From Paludibacteraceae bacterium (GTDB lineage Bacteria > Bacteroidota > Bacteroidia > Bacteroidales > Paludibacteraceae), in contig JAFZLC010000040.1 of NCBI GenBank assembly GCA_017551675.1, forward strand, positions 1-64,000: a stretch of 64,000 nucleotides of DNA, written 5' to 3'. Under the pieces are notes generated by a model. That model saw only the letters and a list, made by a program, of their open reading frames with translations, ran no database searches and was not told where the DNA came from. The position numbers and the translations under genes were made by a program. Below are positions 48,385 through 57,932 of the stretch, one piece after another (within the stretch, counting starts at the first letter, position 1; every line of letters starts with the position of its first letter).

Positions 48385-50409
48385 ATGAAATTCAAGCTGG
48401 CATCCGAATTTGCACCTACGGGCGACCAACCTCAAGCCATTGAGGAACTCTCCGAAGGCGTCCTTTCTGGTACGCAGCATCAAACATTATTAGGTGTCAC
48501 TGGTTCCGGCAAAACATTCACCATTGCCAACGTTATAGAGAAAGTCCAACGTCCCACGCTTATATTAAGCCACAACAAGACATTAGCGGCTCAGCTTTAC
48601 AGTGAGTTCAAAAGTTTCTTTCCCGATAACGCGGTGGAGTATTTTGTCTCCTACTATGATTACTTTCAGCCGGAAGCGTATCTACCTAATACGGATACAT
48701 ACATAGAAAAAGACCTCTCCATCAATGATGAGTTAGAGAAACTTCGTCTGTCCACCACCTCTTCCCTTCTATCAGGAAGGAGGGACGTCATCGTGGTCTC
48801 CTCCGTCTCTTGTCTCTATGGCATAGGTAACCCAGATGATTTCTACAGCACCATGATCACCATCAAACGGGGTGCCATGATGAGTATGAACTATCTGCTC
48901 CGCAAACTGGTGGAAAGTTTGTACATCCGCAATGAAATAGAGCTGGACCACGGTCGATTCAGAGTGAAGGGCGACACGGTGGATGTTTTTTTAGCTTATA
49001 CGGATTTTATCATAAGGATTCATTTTTGGGGCGATGAAATCGAAGAAATTGAGTCCATAGACCCCATCAACAACATTCACATCGAGTCATTCGAAGAATA
49101 CAACATCTACCCCGCCAACCTGTTTGTCACCACGCAAGAGCGAATTAACAAAGCGGTTAACGAGATTCAGGATGACTTAAACACACAGGTTGAATATTTC
49201 CAATCCATCGGTAAAGTGTTTGAGGGTAAACGTCTATACGAACGTGTCAACTACGACTTGGAGATGATCAAAGAATTGGGACATTGCTCGGGCATCGAAA
49301 ATTATTCACGCTATTTCGACGGACGCAAACCGGGGACGCGACCTTTCTGTCTGCTGGACTATTTCCCAAAAGATTTTCTTTTAGTCGTTGATGAGAGTCA
49401 CGTGACCATTCCACAAATTCACGCCATGTACGGAGGTGATTTCTCCAGGAAAAGCACTTTGGTCAACTATGGATTCCGTCTTCCATCAGCATTAGACAAT
49501 CGTCCACTCAAGTTTGACGAATTTGAACAATTGGTGGGGCAAAGCATCTATGTCAGTGCCACACCAGCAGAATACGAATTGGAGAAATCGGGGGGAATAT
49601 TCGTCGAGCAGGTGATTCGTCCAACAGGTTTGTTAGACCCAATCATTGAAGTTCGTCCTAGTAACAATCAGATTGACGATTTACTTGAGGAGATTCAAGT
49701 CAGAGCAGAAAAAGACGAACGTGTCTTGGTCACCACCCTCACCAAAAGAATGGCAGAGGAGTTACAAGCCTACTTAGAGAAAATGGGCGTACGAAGCAAC
49801 TATATCCACTCAGACGTAGAAACATTGGATCGCGTACAAATCATGGAAGATCTACGAAAAGGATTATTCGATGTACTCGTAGGTGTCAATCTACTCAGGG
49901 AGGGACTTGATTTACCACAGGTGTCGCTTGTTGCCATTATCGATGCTGATAAAGAAGGCATGCTCCGTTCTCACAGAGCATTAACACAAACTGTGGGTCG
50001 CGCTGCCAGAAACGTCAACGGAAAAGCAATCATGTATGCCGACAAGATTACGCGAAGCATGCAACTCACCATCGACGAGACAAATAGGCGAAGAGAAAAA
50101 CAGATGGCCTATAATATAGAGCACAACATAACGCCAAAATCAGCCATCAAGAACAGCAAGTCTGTTCTAACGAGTGAAACCAGCAAAGCGGAAGTCAGTA
50201 GAAAAGAATACCCAACAGAGAATCTCCATTCCATAGCAGCAGAAGAGAGTCCGAAACTGCAAACAAGAACCGACATAGAGAAAGCCATCGAAAAGGCAAA
50301 AAAAGCCATGAAACAATGTGCAAAAAACCTCGATTTCATAGAGGCTGCACAATACAGAGACGAGATTTTGAGACTGGAAGGAATGCTAAAAAAAGGAGAA
50401 ACAAAATAA
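48385..50409 (+). CDS. uvrB: Excinuclease ABC subunit B
   Basis: A 674-residue DNA-repair helicase-like protein that loads at UvrA-marked lesions and positions UvrC. Walker A GVTGSGKT, the beta-hairpin YYDYFQPEAYLPNTDTYIEK, DESHVTIPQ, QTVGRAARN and a C-terminal UVR coiled coil (FIEAAQYRDEILRLEG) that contacts UvrC are all present. Full length. It follows the small PspC gene by 3 nt. Confidence 0.97.
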   Translation: MKFKLASEFAPTGDQPQAIEELSEGVLSGTQHQTLLGVTGSGKTFTIANVIEKVQRPTLILSHNKTLAAQLYSEFKSFFPDNAVEYFVSYYDYFQPEAYLPNTDTYIEKDLSINDELEKLRLSTTSSLLSGRRDVIVVSSVSCLYGIGNPDDFYSTMITIKRGAMMSMNYLLRKLVESLYIRNEIELDHGRFRVKGDTVDVFLAYTDFIIRIHFWGDEIEEIESIDPINNIHIESFEEYNIYPANLFVTTQERINKAVNEIQDDLNTQVEYFQSIGKVFEGKRLYERVNYDLEMIKELGHCSGIENYSRYFDGRKPGTRPFCLLDYFPKDFLLVVDESHVTIPQIHAMYGGDFSRKSTLVNYGFRLPSALDNRPLKFDEFEQLVGQSIYVSATPAEYELEKSGGIFVEQVIRPTGLLDPIIEVRPSNNQIDDLLEEIQVRAEKDERVLVTTLTKRMAEELQAYLEKMGVRSNYIHSDVETLDRVQIMEDLRKGLFDVLVGVNLLREGLDLPQVSLVAIIDADKEGMLRSHRALTQTVGRAARNVNGKAIMYADKITRSMQLTIDETNRRREKQMAYNIEHNITPKSAIKNSKSVLTSETSKAEVSRKEYPTENLHSIAAEESPKLQTRTDIEKAIEKAKKAMKQCAKNLDFIEAAQYRDEILRLEGMLKKGETK

Positions 50410-50794: not shown

Positions 50795-53700
50795 ATGAAA
50801 AACGCAAAACTCTTTATTCTTACAGCATTTACTATGTTGTTTGGATGTCTGGTAAGCAGCTATGCCGATCCGGATCCTAATTTTCACATTTATCTGTGTT
50901 TCGGGCAATCCAACATGGAAGGTCAAGGAACTATAGAAAACCAAGACAAAACTGTAGACAGTCGCTTCCAAGTATTATGTTCATACGACAACTGTGGAAG
51001 CCGAGCTAAAGGAAACTGGTATGATGCCACTCCCCCACTCTCATGTTGTAGTGGAGCGCACCTCGGACCAGTAGATTACTTCGGACGTACAATGGTAAAG
51101 AATTTGCCAGAGAACATCAAAGTAGGTGTTACAGTCGTAGCTATTGCAGGTTGTGACATTCAATTATTTGAAAAGTCAAACTACCAAAGCTATCGTCCAG
51201 AGTCTTACATGCAAAGCACCATTCAATCGTACGGAGGAAATCCTTACGGACGATTGGTAGAGATGGGAAAAGCCGCACAAAAGGTAGGTGTCATCAAAGG
51301 TATTCTTCTTCATCAAGGAGAGACCAACACAGGTCAAAGCAACTGGCCAAGCCGTGTGAAAGCCATTTACAACGATCTTTTGAACGATCTTGGTTTGAAG
51401 GGCGAAGATGTACCTTTATTAGTCGGTGAAGTTGTTCGTTCCGACCAAGGTGGACAATGTGGTAGTATGAACAATATCATCGCCAATGTACCAAGCACTA
51501 TTCCAAATTCATATGTTATTTCGGCACAAGGCTTAGGGAACAAAGGTGACGGACTTCACTTCTCTTCTGCAAGTTACCGTACATTGGGACAACGTTATGC
51601 AGAACAAATGTTGAAAGTGTTGAAGATGGAACCTTCTTCAGGAAGTAGCACAACTGACCCAGGAAGCAGCACAACCGAGCCTGGTGGTTCATCATCCACT
51701 TCAACCGACAACTGCGCCCCTGATCCATGCTCTATGAAGACAAAATATTCAGGAGGAAAATCTGTATCAGGAAATGTAAGACAAGACGTTGGTAATGGAT
51801 ATCACGTAGAGCAATGGCGCGATGGTGGAGGTGGAGACTTGACTGTGTTCGGAGGAAAAGCCGACTGCGCATTCAAGGCTAGCTGGAGTAACTCAGGTGA
51901 CTATTTGGCACGTGTAGGTTATTACGATGGTTCTAACTCTAAGAAATATACCGACTTGGGAGAAATCCACGCAGTATATAACTACACAAAACAAGGAAGT
52001 GGTGGAGGAAGCTACTCATATATAGGAATATACGGATGGACAAGAAGTCCGTTGATTGAGTATTATATTGTAGAAGATTCTTTCACTCCTAACGGAGGTG
52101 GTATGTTCTGGGATCAAAGCCGTAATGGACAAGCTGCAACCAAAGGAACCTATACAGTAGATGGTGTTACATATACTTTAAAGGTTGGAAAGAGAATCAA
52201 CCAACCTTCTATCGACGGTACATCTACATTCGACCAAGTATTCGCTATTCGTTCTTCTTATCAGACTTGCGGACACGTTAACATCACCGAGCACTTCAAG
52301 AACTGGGAGAAATTAGGTGTTAACCTAGGAGGCATATACGATTGTAAAATTCTTTGTGAAGTAGGTGGAGGTTCTGGTTCTGTGGAATACACATGTGCTA
52401 GTATGTCATGGAAAGGCAAAGAGAGTTCTCTCGGCGACTTGAGTTGCCAAGGAAGTGGATCAGGTTCAGGATCTGGATCTGGCAGTGGTTCTACTGTAGT
52501 AGAGCAAAAGCCATATAAAGATGCATTTACAATTCCTGGTGTCGTAGAGGCAGAGAACTATGATATCGGAGGTAACGGAAATGCCTACAATGATTCTGAC
52601 GACAACAACGAAGGAGACGCTAAATATCGTACAGATGAAGGCGTGGACATCGTAAAGACATCCGACGGAATGGCTGTTGGTTACACAACTTCTAGCGAAT
52701 GGTTGGAATATACAGTCAACGTAAAGAAAACTGCTAAATACAATGTTGAAGCAGTAGGATCTAACAAGAATGACGACGTGAAGTTCACACTTTACTTAGA
52801 TAACAAAGAGATTGCTTCATTATCTGGATCTTCCACTCCAAGCTGGGATGATTATGAGACAATCAAAGCAACAACATCGACCCTATCAGAAGGAAAACAT
52901 ATTTTGAAAGTAAAGATTGGTAACAACAACTGTAATCTGGACAAACTAACGTTCACAGAAGTAGACACAACAAGTGGAAGCGGTTCTGGCTCTGGTAGTG
53001 GTAGCGGTTCTGGAAGTGGCAGTGGCTCAGGTTCAAGCTCAGGTAGCGGTGCATCTAATCCTGCTGGCGTATACCCTATCAGCTATTCTGTAGAGAACAC
53101 AGGTGCTGATTGCGAAGATCCATCTTCATTAAACAAGAACAATTTGAAATCATGCAAGAATTTGCCTAACCCATTCGAGTGGGCAGATGGAAGCGGCAAG
53201 GTAACCGATTTCTGCGACTGGTCTTGCCGTCGTAATGAAATCAAGCGTGAGATTGAGTTCTGGGAGATTGGAGAGAAACCTAAATTCGACAAGTTGGAGG
53301 CATCCTATTCAGGAGGTACTTTGACAGTAAAGGTTTACAATGGAAGCAACTCACTTACTTTGACCAGCAAGATATCGGTTCCTTCTGGAAACGGACCACA
53401 CCCAATTGTGATTGGTATGGATGGCAACACAGGAAGTTTGGACAAATCTTTCTTCTCCAAGTGTATTCAAGTTCCATTCACCCATAAACAAATTGCAGGA
53501 TATAGCGCCGATGGCGGTAGAAGTCAAAACGATCCATTCTATAAACTATTCCCTGGTACATTTGATTCAAAAGCAGACTACTGCGCATGGTCATGGGGTA
53601 TCAGCCGTTTGATTGATGGTTTGGAGATTGTAAAAGACCAAATCAAAGCAGATCTTGGACATATTGCAGTAACAGGTTGCTCTTATGCTGGTAAGATGGC

Positions 53701-54556
53701 ATTATTTGCAGGAGCTTTCGACGAGCGTATTGCTTTAACAATCTCACAAGAGTCAGGTGGTGGCGGAATCAACGCATGGCGCGTTTCCAAAGAAATAAAC
53801 CAAAATGGTGGTGTTAATGGCGAAACCATCGAAGGTATTGAGAACACTGAATATAACTGGTTCTTGAATAGTTTCAAGAGCAACTTTCAATCACAAATCG
53901 ACAAGTTGCCTTACGATCACCATGAGTTAATTGCCATGTGTGCACCACGTGCTTTCTTAGCGTATGGTAATACAGACTACAATTGGTTAGGTGCTCCTTC
54001 TGGTGACATGGCACTAAAGGCAGCTGCGGAAGTATGGAAGGCCATGGGTATAGAAGATCGTTTCGGATATGTGATTGATGGCGGACATGGTCACTGCCAA
54101 GCATCCAACAGCCAGAACAATGCTGCTAAAGCCTTTATTCAAAAATTCCTTTTCGGAGATAATTCACAAAACACAAAGATTAGAAGCAGCAATGTTAACC
54201 CTAATTATAGTACAGGAAAATACGACTGGGGTGGACATACAATAGTGAATAACGGATGTGGAACAAGCAGTGTGACTGAGACAAGTGACGACTCAAATAT
54301 ATACGCACTTTCTCAGAATGCGCCAAACCCTACAGACGAAGAAACAACAATTTCGTTTAATGTTCCAGAAAGAACATTTGTTTCCATCGAACTATACAAT
54401 AGCTTAGGACAAAAAGTGAAAGATATAGTTGCAGGTGAATACACGGAAGGCGTACATGCTGTTACCTTCTCCACTGCAAATCTGCCAAAAGGCATCTATC
54501 ACTACGTGATGAAAGCAAATAATTTCGTGGATGGAAAGAGTATGATTGTTAAATAA
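50795..54556 (+). CDS. Secreted multi-catalytic xylan-degrading enzyme: SGNH acetylesterase-GH11-CBM6-CE15-T9SS
   Basis: A 1253-residue exported protein (signal peptide ends near SSYA, residue 24). Domains: ~28-276, SGNH acetylesterase (SASA/CE6-like), Ser39 in GQSNMEG, Asp252/His255 in DGLHF; ~307-543, GH11 endo-xylanase, nucleophile Glu422 in GWTRSPLIEYY and acid/base Glu522; ~572-724, CBM6 (VVEAENYD, EWLEYTVNV); ~757-1124, CE15 glucuronoyl esterase, Ser963, Glu986 and a His of DGGHGHC; ~1165-1253, T9SS sorting domain. Linkers are Ser/Thr/Pro- and Gly-Ser-rich. Together these could deacetylate xylan, cut its backbone and release glucuronate-lignin esters. The CE15 motif reads GCSYAGK, with Tyr where Arg is usual. 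No SusCD pair is near. Confidence 0.92.
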   Translation: MKNAKLFILTAFTMLFGCLVSSYADPDPNFHIYLCFGQSNMEGQGTIENQDKTVDSRFQVLCSYDNCGSRAKGNWYDATPPLSCCSGAHLGPVDYFGRTMVKNLPENIKVGVTVVAIAGCDIQLFEKSNYQSYRPESYMQSTIQSYGGNPYGRLVEMGKAAQKVGVIKGILLHQGETNTGQSNWPSRVKAIYNDLLNDLGLKGEDVPLLVGEVVRSDQGGQCGSMNNIIANVPSTIPNSYVISAQGLGNKGDGLHFSSASYRTLGQRYAEQMLKVLKMEPSSGSSTTDPGSSTTEPGGSSSTSTDNCAPDPCSMKTKYSGGKSVSGNVRQDVGNGYHVEQWRDGGGGDLTVFGGKADCAFKASWSNSGDYLARVGYYDGSNSKKYTDLGEIHAVYNYTKQGSGGGSYSYIGIYGWTRSPLIEYYIVEDSFTPNGGGMFWDQSRNGQAATKGTYTVDGVTYTLKVGKRINQPSIDGTSTFDQVFAIRSSYQTCGHVNITEHFKNWEKLGVNLGGIYDCKILCEVGGGSGSVEYTCASMSWKGKESSLGDLSCQGSGSGSGSGSGSGSTVVEQKPYKDAFTIPGVVEAENYDIGGNGNAYNDSDDNNEGDAKYRTDEGVDIVKTSDGMAVGYTTSSEWLEYTVNVKKTAKYNVEAVGSNKNDDVKFTLYLDNKEIASLSGSSTPSWDDYETIKATTSTLSEGKHILKVKIGNNNCNLDKLTFTEVDTTSGSGSGSGSGSGSGSGSGSGSSSGSGASNPAGVYPISYSVENTGADCEDPSSLNKNNLKSCKNLPNPFEWADGSGKVTDFCDWSCRRNEIKREIEFWEIGEKPKFDKLEASYSGGTLTVKVYNGSNSLTLTSKISVPSGNGPHPIVIGMDGNTGSLDKSFFSKCIQVPFTHKQIAGYSADGGRSQNDPFYKLFPGTFDSKADYCAWSWGISRLIDGLEIVKDQIKADLGHIAVTGCSYAGKMALFAGAFDERIALTISQESGGGGINAWRVSKEINQNGGVNGETIEGIENTEYNWFLNSFKSNFQSQIDKLPYDHHELIAMCAPRAFLAYGNTDYNWLGAPSGDMALKAAAEVWKAMGIEDRFGYVIDGGHGHCQASNSQNNAAKAFIQKFLFGDNSQNTKIRSSNVNPNYSTGKYDWGGHTIVNNGCGTSSVTETSDDSNIYALSQNAPNPTDEETTISFNVPERTFVSIELYNSLGQKVKDIVAGEYTEGVHAVTFSTANLPKGIYHYVMKANNFVDGKSMIVK

Positions 54557-55040: not shown

Positions 55041-56066
55041 ATGAAGAAAATATTGTCTAAAATAATTATCGCCCTCCTAATTTTAGGTGGAATCGCCGGC
55101 TTCGTCGGATATAAATATCTATTAGGAAGCAATGTCAAAACAAATTCGGATTCGCCCGTATACTTTGATATCTATTCCGATCAAGGATACAACTCTGTCA
55201 TGGAAAACTTGGAACTGACCGGAGTCATTCAAAACATGACATCTTTAAAATTAGCGGCCAAGCTATTAGGCTATCAAGACAAGGTGAAAGCAGGAAGATA
55301 TGAACTCACCGACGGATTGAGCAGTCTCAAACTCATTCAGAAACTACGAAGCGGTCGACAAACTCCTGTACGTTTCACATTCAACAACATTCGCACAAAA
55401 GATCAATTCGCCCAAAGAGTGGATGAGGTATTGATGATGAGTAAGGAGGAATTCCTTGAAGAGTTAGACAGTCAAGAGACCCTCAACAAATATGGCCTCA
55501 CCAAGGAAAACAACATAGCCATATTCATTCCAAACACATACGAATTCTATTGGAACATCACCCCTAAAGAATTCATCGAGAAAATGAATAAAGAGTATGA
55601 GAAATTCTGGACTGCTGACCGTCAGAAAAAATTAGCGGACTGTCAATTAACCCGTTTGGAAGTGAGCACCCTAGCCTCTATCGTAGAAGAAGAGACTATC
55701 AAGAATGACGAACGTCCTAAAGTGGCAGGACTCTATCTCAACCGTCTTCGTATTGGCATGATGCTTCAAGCGGACCCAACCGTAAAATTCGCACTAGGCG
55801 ACTTCTCTATCAAACGTGTGACTGGAGCAGGTTTTGTAGACTCCCCATATAACACATATAAATATGCAGGATTGCCACCCGGACCTATTCGTATTCCTTG
55901 CACAGGTGGTATCGATGCCGTACTAAACTACGAGCACCACGACTACCTATTCATGTGCGCAAAAAGAGATTTCTCTGGATACCATGATTTCTCCACCACG
56001 TTCGACGAGCATCAAAACAATGCTCATAAGTATCATAAAGAATTGGACAAGAAAGGAATAAAATAA
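55041..56066 (+). CDS. mltG: Endolytic murein transglycosylase
   Basis: A 341-residue inner-membrane enzyme that cuts nascent glycan strands and so sets strand length. It has one N-terminal span (residues ~7-28), a LysM-like module (YSDQGYNSVMENLELTG) and the YceG/MltG catalytic region with the conserved ASIVEEET (residues 212-219, catalytic Glu), PNTYEFYWN and PTVKFALGD followed by SPYNTYKYAGLPPGPI. Full length for Bacteroidetes. Confidence 0.95.
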   Translation: MKKILSKIIIALLILGGIAGFVGYKYLLGSNVKTNSDSPVYFDIYSDQGYNSVMENLELTGVIQNMTSLKLAAKLLGYQDKVKAGRYELTDGLSSLKLIQKLRSGRQTPVRFTFNNIRTKDQFAQRVDEVLMMSKEEFLEELDSQETLNKYGLTKENNIAIFIPNTYEFYWNITPKEFIEKMNKEYEKFWTADRQKKLADCQLTRLEVSTLASIVEEETIKNDERPKVAGLYLNRLRIGMMLQADPTVKFALGDFSIKRVTGAGFVDSPYNTYKYAGLPPGPIRIPCTGGIDAVLNYEHHDYLFMCAKRDFSGYHDFSTTFDEHQNNAHKYHKELDKKGIK

Positions 56067-56085: not shown

Positions 56086-56139
56086 TTTCGTAGGATCTTA
56101 AATAAATTTATTTCTATTAAAACGCTAAAATCACCTCAA

Positions 56140-57051
56140 ATGATGAAAAAAGTGATTTCATTCATATTATTTTCTGGATTAGGAATGTGTACAATCGCCA
56201 GTGCACAAACGATGAAAGAAAATCTATTCAACATGGTGTCAAGATGTCACGATGCATGGAAAAGTGAAGGCACAGATGTCGATGAAAATGGAAAAGAATT
56301 TGAATATGGAAGTATTAAGTACGACCTACCCAATGGGTATGTAGAGACGTCAGGAGGATGGCCTACCTGCGGATGCGGCTGTGAAGCTCAAGCGGCAGCA
56401 TTCAAGGATATCAACGGACGATACACCTATCTTAAATACGAAGAGTTCAACTGCGATGATTACGGTAAATCTGAATCCAATAGAGATATTCTGGATATCA
56501 TGCCAGAAGGGTTTGGACTAAAATCTTTCACCAGCTATTACTCATGGAAACCTTCAGACTACTCCTTCCAATTAAAATTTATCATTCCGAAAAAAGGCAC
56601 CGACATGAATGTCAAACTTCGTGTGCTCCCCTTAGGCTCTATTCCCAATGATGTAAATGGATTGACATACAAATCGAGAGGGAACATAAAAAATTATACT
56701 ACTTTACATTGTTTGAGACACGTGGCAGAAGCAGTTGATAATAATACTCTTCTCATGATGGCTGAAGGTAAATTTGACGAAATATCAACCGAACAGATAG
56801 AGCTATTTCAAAAGAGTGTTTCATCACACAGCAATGGTGGTGAAGACACAGACTCTGATGTTCTTTCTTGTATTATAGATGTAAAGAAGATGTATGACAT
56901 ATATCTGTCGTTGGATTGTGTTGACATGACACTGAAATGGAACAAACAGACTGCACGATTTGAAATAAAATCGAAAGGTCCCAAAGCTCCAGCTTGCTCT
57001 TTCAAAGAGTTTCTGACAAATGTGGTAGAATATGCCGACTATAGATGCTGA
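56140..57051 (+). CDS. Secreted protein of unknown function
   Basis: A 303-residue protein with a signal peptide (cleaved near ASAQT, residue ~23). A Cys/Gly-rich turn GGWPTCGCGCEAQAAAF lies at ~71-87; further cysteines are at CDDYG, LHCLRH, SCIID, SLDCVD, PACSF and the C-terminal residue, suggesting several disulfides in the envelope. No family recognised. It lies between mltG and a small membrane protein gene on the same strand, each with gaps of 58-73 nt. Confidence 0.7.
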   Translation: MMKKVISFILFSGLGMCTIASAQTMKENLFNMVSRCHDAWKSEGTDVDENGKEFEYGSIKYDLPNGYVETSGGWPTCGCGCEAQAAAFKDINGRYTYLKYEEFNCDDYGKSESNRDILDIMPEGFGLKSFTSYYSWKPSDYSFQLKFIIPKKGTDMNVKLRVLPLGSIPNDVNGLTYKSRGNIKNYTTLHCLRHVAEAVDNNTLLMMAEGKFDEISTEQIELFQKSVSSHSNGGEDTDSDVLSCIIDVKKMYDIYLSLDCVDMTLKWNKQTARFEIKSKGPKAPACSFKEFLTNVVEYADYRC

Positions 57052-57109
57052 TGTTTGATTTGCCACAAAAGAGATATAAGTTTATAACAATTAACATCGA
57101 AATAATATC

Positions 57110-57478
57110 ATGGCCGCTATTATCGGAACAATTGCCTTTTCAATCGTAATCGTTTTATCCATACTGATTATCTGTGGATTACCCCTAGGAGAATTAACCA
57201 TGGGCGGACAACACAAAGTGTTTCCTCCGCGGCTAAGAATCATTTTAATCTCACAATTGTTCTTACAGCTATTCTTTGTCGTCATCCTCTTACAAATGGG
57301 AGGCTACCTACCCTTATGGTTTTCCGAGCGAACAACAAGAATAATAGCTATCGTCATGGCTGTATATCTTTCAATCAACACCCTGATGAACTTTATTTCC
57401 AAAAGCAAAAAAGAAAAATACATCATGACTCCATTGTCACTGATCACAGCCATCTGCTTTTGGGTTACAATACTATAA
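57110..57478 (+). CDS. Small integral membrane protein of unknown function
   Basis: A 122-residue protein with four predicted membrane spans (about residues 2-25, 43-65, 75-95 and 104-122) and a short conserved-looking loop PLGELTMGGQHKVFPPRLR between the first two. The G-E-x-x-MGG-x-x-x-x-P pattern suggests a conserved small-membrane-protein family, but I cannot name it. It precedes the flavin-binding-fold gene by 25 nt. Confidence 0.65.
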   Translation: MAAIIGTIAFSIVIVLSILIICGLPLGELTMGGQHKVFPPRLRIILISQLFLQLFFVVILLQMGGYLPLWFSERTTRIIAIVMAVYLSINTLMNFISKSKKEKYIMTPLSLITAICFWVTIL

Positions 57479-57503
57479 ATAGCACTAACTAAAAACAAAA
57501 GAT

Positions 57504-57932
57504 ATGACAAAAGAAGAGCTTTTTAAATTAATGAATGAACATCCTGTGATGTACGTAGCCACCAACGACAATGGTCAGCCACGTGTGCGAGGCATATTGA
57601 TGTTCAAAGCAGATGAGAATGGTATTGTGTTCCACACTGGTGTAACAAAAGATTTCTACCGTCAATTGATAGCCGACCCTCGTTCTGAAGTATGTTTTGC
57701 TTGTGGCAAATACCAAATACGAGTAGAAGGAAAATTCGATTTGGTGGAAGATCGAGCAATAAAAGAGGAGATTGTCAACCATCCTTCTCGCAAGTTCCTT
57801 CAACCATGGAGAGCGCAGCAAGGTGATGAAGCATTCTTCAACTTTCTAAAAGTGTTCCGTATGCAACATGGCAAAGCGTATGTATGGTGCATGGAGGACA
57901 ACTTCAAACCAAAAGAGTACATTGAGTTATAA
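57504..57932 (+). CDS. Pyridoxamine 5'-phosphate oxidase-fold (flavin-binding) protein
   Basis: A 142-residue split-barrel protein: MYVATNDNGQPRVRGILMFKADENGIVFHTG and PRSEVCFACGKYQIRVEGKFDLVED are the typical FMN-binding strands of the PNPOx-like family. It probably binds FMN or F420-like cofactors; the actual reaction is unknown, with detoxifying reductase activity possible. Likely cotranscribed with the small membrane protein. Confidence 0.87.
   Translation: MTKEELFKLMNEHPVMYVATNDNGQPRVRGILMFKADENGIVFHTGVTKDFYRQLIADPRSEVCFACGKYQIRVEGKFDLVEDRAIKEEIVNHPSRKFLQPWRAQQGDEAFFNFLKVFRMQHGKAYVWCMEDNFKPKEYIEL

Follow-up and report, generated by a model that had tools for sequence, protein, structure and literature searches.

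The gene at positions 50795..54556 (+ strand) of the window, that is, of the whole stretch of 64,000 nucleotides that was analyzed, encodes a chain of 1253 amino acids. It is very likely that this chain is a secreted enzyme with three predicted activities on decorated glucuronoxylan, belonging to a T9SS xylanase family whose modules have been swapped by recombination. The order of its parts is signal peptide, CE6-like SGNH acetylesterase, GH11, CBM6, CE15-B and T9SS type A tail. New here are the separate lineages in the GH11 slot, the conflict of ancestry in the CE15 core, and the clade of Tyr-type CE15 domains with Piromyces and Fibrobacter sequences nested in it.

Gene and domain assignment

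The gene was delimited by its open reading frame and domain scans, and the domains were assigned with Pfam and NCBIfam profiles, all five matches (SASA, GH11, CBM_6, GCE_fung and Por_Secre_tail) lying above the curated cut-offs. The initial annotation had read the same frame with exact coordinates and had called the same domains; it had made its reading depend on the assignment of GH11 and CE15 by domain search, and both are assigned. The active-site residues which it named (S39/D252/H255, E422/E522 and S963/E986, the last with an S-to-E spacing of 23) are all present. The gene is apparently monocistronic and is placed between uvrB (48385..50409, +), which was used as species yardstick, and an mltG/YceG-like gene (55041..56066, +); both neighbours lie outside the enzyme and are housekeeping genes, not PUL partners.

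Residues 1-24 (50795..50866, +), read by inspection, are a putative signal peptide. The first catalytic domain, residues 25-280 (50867..51634, +), matches Pfam SASA at 2.5e-34 (residues 30-274) and has Ser39, Gln174 (HQGE), Asp252 and His255; the SGNH fold and the GQSN, HQGE and DxxH motifs of CE6 are found in the sequence and the model. As the domain resembles solved structures only weakly in sequence (1ZMB, 4e-7), it was modelled by AlphaFold using an alignment with 37 relatives, which gave a pLDDT of 96.5. Among solved folds, the model comes closest to 1ZMB, whose title is putative acetylxylan esterase, and to Arabidopsis 2APJ; NanS and other SGNH deacetylases rank behind them, and the closest solved structures are only about 20% identical to the domain. 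Because of these two fold neighbours, along with the SASA match and the motifs, the prediction that the domain is a CE6-type acetylxylan esterase is well supported.

The xylanase domain, residues 302-545 (51698..52429, +), matches Pfam GH11 at 1.8e-34 (residues 334-531; 119 bits vs a cut-off of 27) and PDB 5GV1 at 6.8e-46, and the two catalytic glutamates of the family, Glu422 and Glu522, are in place. GH11 was present in 2 of the 391 other Bacteroidota genomes sampled, which bears out the earlier remark that it is uncommon in Bacteroidetes. The CBM6, residues about 571-726 (52505..52972, +), matches the Pfam CBM_6 profile at 1.2e-17 over residues 610-721 (64.8 bits vs a cut-off of 28.9). It is joined to CE15 by a Gly/Ser linker seen in the sequence (52973..53065, +), and a second GS run lies at the GH11-CBM6 junction. 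The CE15-B glucuronoyl esterase domain covers residues 758-1146 (53066..54232, +), with a Pfam GCE_fung match of 1.1e-66 over residues 845-1085.

The T9SS type A C-terminal sorting domain, residues 1177-1253 (54323..54553, +), matches Por_Secre_tail at 1.1e-7 (residues 1177-1244) and TIGR04183 at 3.8e-8. The window genome has SprA (sprA), the one gene by which the T9SS machinery was judged, and 79 matches to the TIGR04183 sorting tail, so that the tail and a machinery gene expected for type A cargo occur together; the T9SS signal named in the initial annotation is confirmed. The enzyme is predicted to be secreted by T9SS and to have a surface location.

Distribution of the architecture

The five-part architecture was found in 14 genes (12 complete) of 13 genomes, representing at least 13 related species, which belong to three genera (g1, g4 and g20) of one Bacteroidales family. 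The complete genes are those of G000, G014, G003, G009, G010, G001 and G002 in genus g1, of G018 (two genes) and G099 in g4, and of G121 and G105 in g20; the gene in G006 is cut by a contig end, and that in G015, which is UBA1181, a congener of the window genome, is broken by an assembly gap. The UBA1181 gene looks split into two ORFs (L155:6348-10074) because of a run of N at which they meet, and a real frameshift was ruled out. Five further genes (G034, G086, G144, G005 and G012) have the order CE6-CBM6-CE15-tail and are without GH11. The architecture is therefore not unique to the window genome, and the order of domains that was unfamiliar at first reading recurs in these three genera. It had also been asked whether the architecture is already widespread and characterized: it is shared within one family, and no sign of characterization was found, since a literature search for a polypeptide with glucuronoyl esterase, acetyl xylan esterase and xylanase gave no paper on the five-part chain or its activity.

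The matching named records are Paludibacteraceae/Bacteroidales draft genomes, several of which name yak, horse or rumen samples in their titles. CE15 matches occur in 86 of 393 sampled genomes of the order, and among the CE15 matches listed from these 393 genomes no frame of at least 1200 amino acids was seen outside the family, as judged by frame length and not by domain scans. Other shuffled chains of the family are GH11-GH11-CBM6-GH8, a BD-FAE with four GH11, BD-FAE-CE6-CBM6 and GH10-CE15. The T9SS chain at L178:4927-9150 (G034 C19), of 1408 amino acids, combines four GH11 domains with a BD-FAE-type esterase, and similar chains with four GH11 are present in L010 and L021.

Probable module exchange in the family

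The genomes nearest to the window genome by UvrB are G014 (98%) and G003 (97%), and in all three the enzyme gene stands beside uvrB. Amino acid identity between the window enzyme and those of G014/G003 is 93% in CE6, 100% in GH11, 99% in CBM6, 81-82% in CE15 and 83-85% in the tail. In 300-bp bins the DNA identity to G014/G003 is about 80-91% over most of CE6, 95-99% in GH11-CBM6 and 71-77% in most of CE15 (core, residues ~830-1150), and the flanks are mostly 85-93% identical (87-93% after the gene). The region at 56100-57600 of the window, with a 303-aa ORF lacking a Pfam match, is 97-99% identical to G003 at DNA level, vs 85-93% in most of the compared region.

In CE6, the window genome, G014 and G003 form a clade, and their GH11 domains are identical, but forcing their CE15 domains into one clade was rejected (AU p = 3e-59). 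By informative sites, the segment with ancestry in conflict with the sister species covers residues about 830-1150 (53282..54244, +), with a log-likelihood gain of 60, whereas 100 permutations gave no more than 9.5. A second gene of G010 (GH11-CBM6-CE15), a genome whose UvrB is only 82% identical, has a CE15 with 94% identity to that of the window enzyme, and the same CE15 type is carried by the five-part gene of G002 and a second gene of G015. For the proposed CE15 swap, breakpoints lying exactly at the Gly/Ser linkers are unsupported, as the segment starts on the left at about residue 830, within the domain. At least three distinct GH11 lineages occur in the GH11 slot, which in some genes is empty, whereas the CE6 tree follows the genera; in the GH11 tree, the slot domain of G002 is closest to a separate xylanase of the same genome.

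This mosaic of the window gene rests on draft genomes, and the conflict of the CE15 core at the uvrB-linked locus is best explained by module exchange, with recombination as the probable cause. Either the window lineage or the G014/G003 lineage may be the recipient of the segment, since this CE15 type also stands in the same frame in G002. It is unlikely that the window CE15 was instead produced by chimeric assembly, with a true gene resembling that of the sister species. The window genome is an assembly of 58 contigs, and the foreign segment is short, at about 960 bp, with sister-like sequence on both sides; but the reading frame and active site are intact, the same CE15 type recurs in the three other genomes named above, the two sister genomes are consistent with one another, and GH11 swaps elsewhere in the family show exchange to be general.

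Active site of the CE15 domain

Alignment to 8TRX, 8TRU and 4G4G gave the CE15-B triad as Ser963, Glu986 and His1100, with the glutamate 23 residues past the serine. The histidine, which had been left without a number in the initial annotation, is most likely the second one of GGHGHC: since catalytic His355 of 8TRX stands immediately before disulfide Cys356 (PMC11345330), His1098 was dropped for His1100. The pair Cys962/Cys1101, which in this family anchors the general base, is present and is predicted from sequence to form a disulfide. Tyr964 replaces the transition-state arginine of the GxSRxGK motif, so that this mark of CE15-B is missing; the tyrosine and the cysteine pair had both escaped the first reading. 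The absent arginine is not disqualifying for CE15-B, because tyrosine is also found at this position in PrCE15, still classed as CE15-B, and in 26 of 35 gut-fungal enzymes (PMC11345330).

In the paralog GH11-CE15-T9SS of the same genome (L115:6114-8438, G000 C18; also in G003 C57) the CE15 lacks the catalytic histidine and has arginine for a disulfide cysteine (GRSC for GCSY), and a homolog in G014 C3 is without CE15 altogether. The CE15 of the G000 C18 paralog is likely a decaying esterase or binding remnant, and its loss of the histidine shows that decay does occur in the family. Together with Tyr964, this could suggest that CE15 or CE6 of the window enzyme serves mainly as a binding or regulatory module and that GH11 is the sole working catalyst, which we consider quite unlikely: the window CE15 retains Ser-Glu-His and the cysteine pair, PrCE15 has a canonical triad with tyrosine, and Fl6 of Flavimarina, also without the arginine, has measured glucuronoyl esterase activity (PMC12247016), so that Tyr964 alone does not imply a dead enzyme. 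For a working CE15, the tyrosine could change rate or specificity.

Origin of the domains

Among solved structures, the window CE15 is most similar to PrCE15 from the anaerobic fungus Piromyces rhizinflata (8TRX; 7.4e-145, 59% identity), far ahead of FsCE15 of F. succinogenes (8TRU; 40%). In a CE15 tree of 54 sequences, one of them gut-fungal, a Bacteroidota clade (100/100) has the Piromyces enzyme and a Tyr-type paralog from Fibrobacter nested within it, and a Bacteroidota-only clade was rejected (p = 0.003, and p = 0.00013 in the 54-sequence tree); the precise sister groups of these two are weakly supported (81-83% bootstrap). Transfer of CE15 from Bacteroidota to fungi is the hypothesis favoured by these sequences, kept at that rank because the tree has a single gut-fungal member. 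The published suggestion that PrCE15 is related to FsCE15 by transfer (PMC11345330) is touched by these data, as PrCE15 is 59-62% identical to the window-clade enzymes and the second Fibrobacter paralog vs 40% to FsCE15, and the pairing of PrCE15 with FsCE15 was rejected in the tree test.

Assembly from parts acquired from Fibrobacter, raised as possible in the initial annotation, is very unlikely: CE6, GH11, CBM6 and CE15 are all known in Fibrobacter (PMC3079729) and a Tyr-type CE15 gene adjoins a CE6 gene in 4 of 7 Fibrobacter loci, but the window GH11 belongs to a clade made up mainly of Bacteroidota and separate from all sampled Fibrobacter GH11s, the Fibrobacter CE15 is nested within Bacteroidota and not the reverse, and the CE6 tree follows Bacteroidales genera, so that a Fibrobacter origin of GH11 and CE15 was rejected.

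In the Fibrobacter drafts L012, L013, L015 and L017, the Tyr-type CE15 directly beside CE6 is distinct from the solved FsCE15. Adjacent CE6 and CE15 genes were seen in Fibrobacter, Prolixibacteraceae, Prevotella and other Bacteroidales loci, in a sample biased by a query that held both domains and with 3 of 7 Fibrobacter loci lacking the pair; the fused chain fits this adjacency. In L219 and L220 (G995 and G843, of the same order) the CE15 reaches 339-346 bits with the fungal GCE model; it groups with a filamentous-fungal enzyme (91/84), for which transfer or contamination is possible.

The broader proposal joins two parts, namely a CE6...CBM6-CE15-T9SS frame that stays fixed while paralogs and neighbouring species repeatedly supply new sequence for its xylanase slot and CE15 core, and a Tyr-type CE15 that arose in Bacteroidota and passed to Fibrobacter and anaerobic gut fungi; we regard the two together as having an even chance of being right. 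If such a recombination-driven cassette system is true, each species would have its own combination of modules.

Proposed function and significance

In the proposed mechanism, the chain would be exported by Sec and passed through T9SS, with the tail removed and the protein either retained on the cell or released. CBM6 would anchor the enzyme to the plant wall, the CE6-like domain would strip acetyl groups and lay the xylan backbone bare, GH11 would cleave that backbone internally, and CE15 would hydrolyse the ester joining (4-O-methyl)glucuronate side chains to lignin. Flexible Gly/Ser linkers may tether the domains so that all steps act on one fragment, giving a possible synergy, and the catalytic modules may be swapped from one paralog or species to another, the CE6...CBM6-CE15-tail frame being kept. 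De-acetylation, backbone cutting and lignin-ester cleavage, as predicted, would be united in one natural secreted chain, and the 14 natural variants, differing mainly in one slot, are a ready set for testing the benefit of domain tethering.

Comparison with known systems

The acetylxylan esterases Fisuc_1766/1767 of Fibrobacter succinogenes are characterized and combine CE6 with CBM6 (PMC3079729), but they are separate genes with a basic terminal domain and a chain lacking GH11 and CE15. CesA of Ruminococcus flavefaciens (CE3 ... CE15) likewise has an acetylxylan esterase and a glucuronoyl esterase in one chain (PMC11345330), with CE3 instead of CE6, CE15-A instead of CE15-B and no GH11. A xylan-cutting domain is fused to CE15 in CkXyn10C-GE15A (GH10-CBM-CE15) and BeCE15A-Rex8A (CE15-GH8), which use other GH families and whose abstracts describe no CE6-type acetylesterase (PMC8280721, PMC8417218). 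PrCE15 shares the tyrosine after the nucleophile and the disulfide pair with the window CE15, but it is eukaryotic and was studied as a CE15 domain outside the five-part context.

The window enzyme also resembles the CAZymes of Ca. Paraporphyromonas polyenzymogenes / Ca. MH11, which PMC5831590 describes as non-PUL T9SS enzymes of rumen Bacteroidales with several catalytic domains, GH8-CBM6-GH11 among them; unlike the window enzyme, that set is given in the main text with CE1, CE3 and CE4 and with no CE6 or CE15. UBA1181 is attributed in PMC8026616 to Naas et al., i.e. to this same study of T9SS enzymes. The source of the window is a gut-dwelling relative of the rumen "Ca. Paraporphyromonas" group, and its enzyme, with predicted catalysis and secretion, is a real and conserved multi-catalytic T9SS chain, a variant of the multi-modular enzymes of rumen Bacteroidales.
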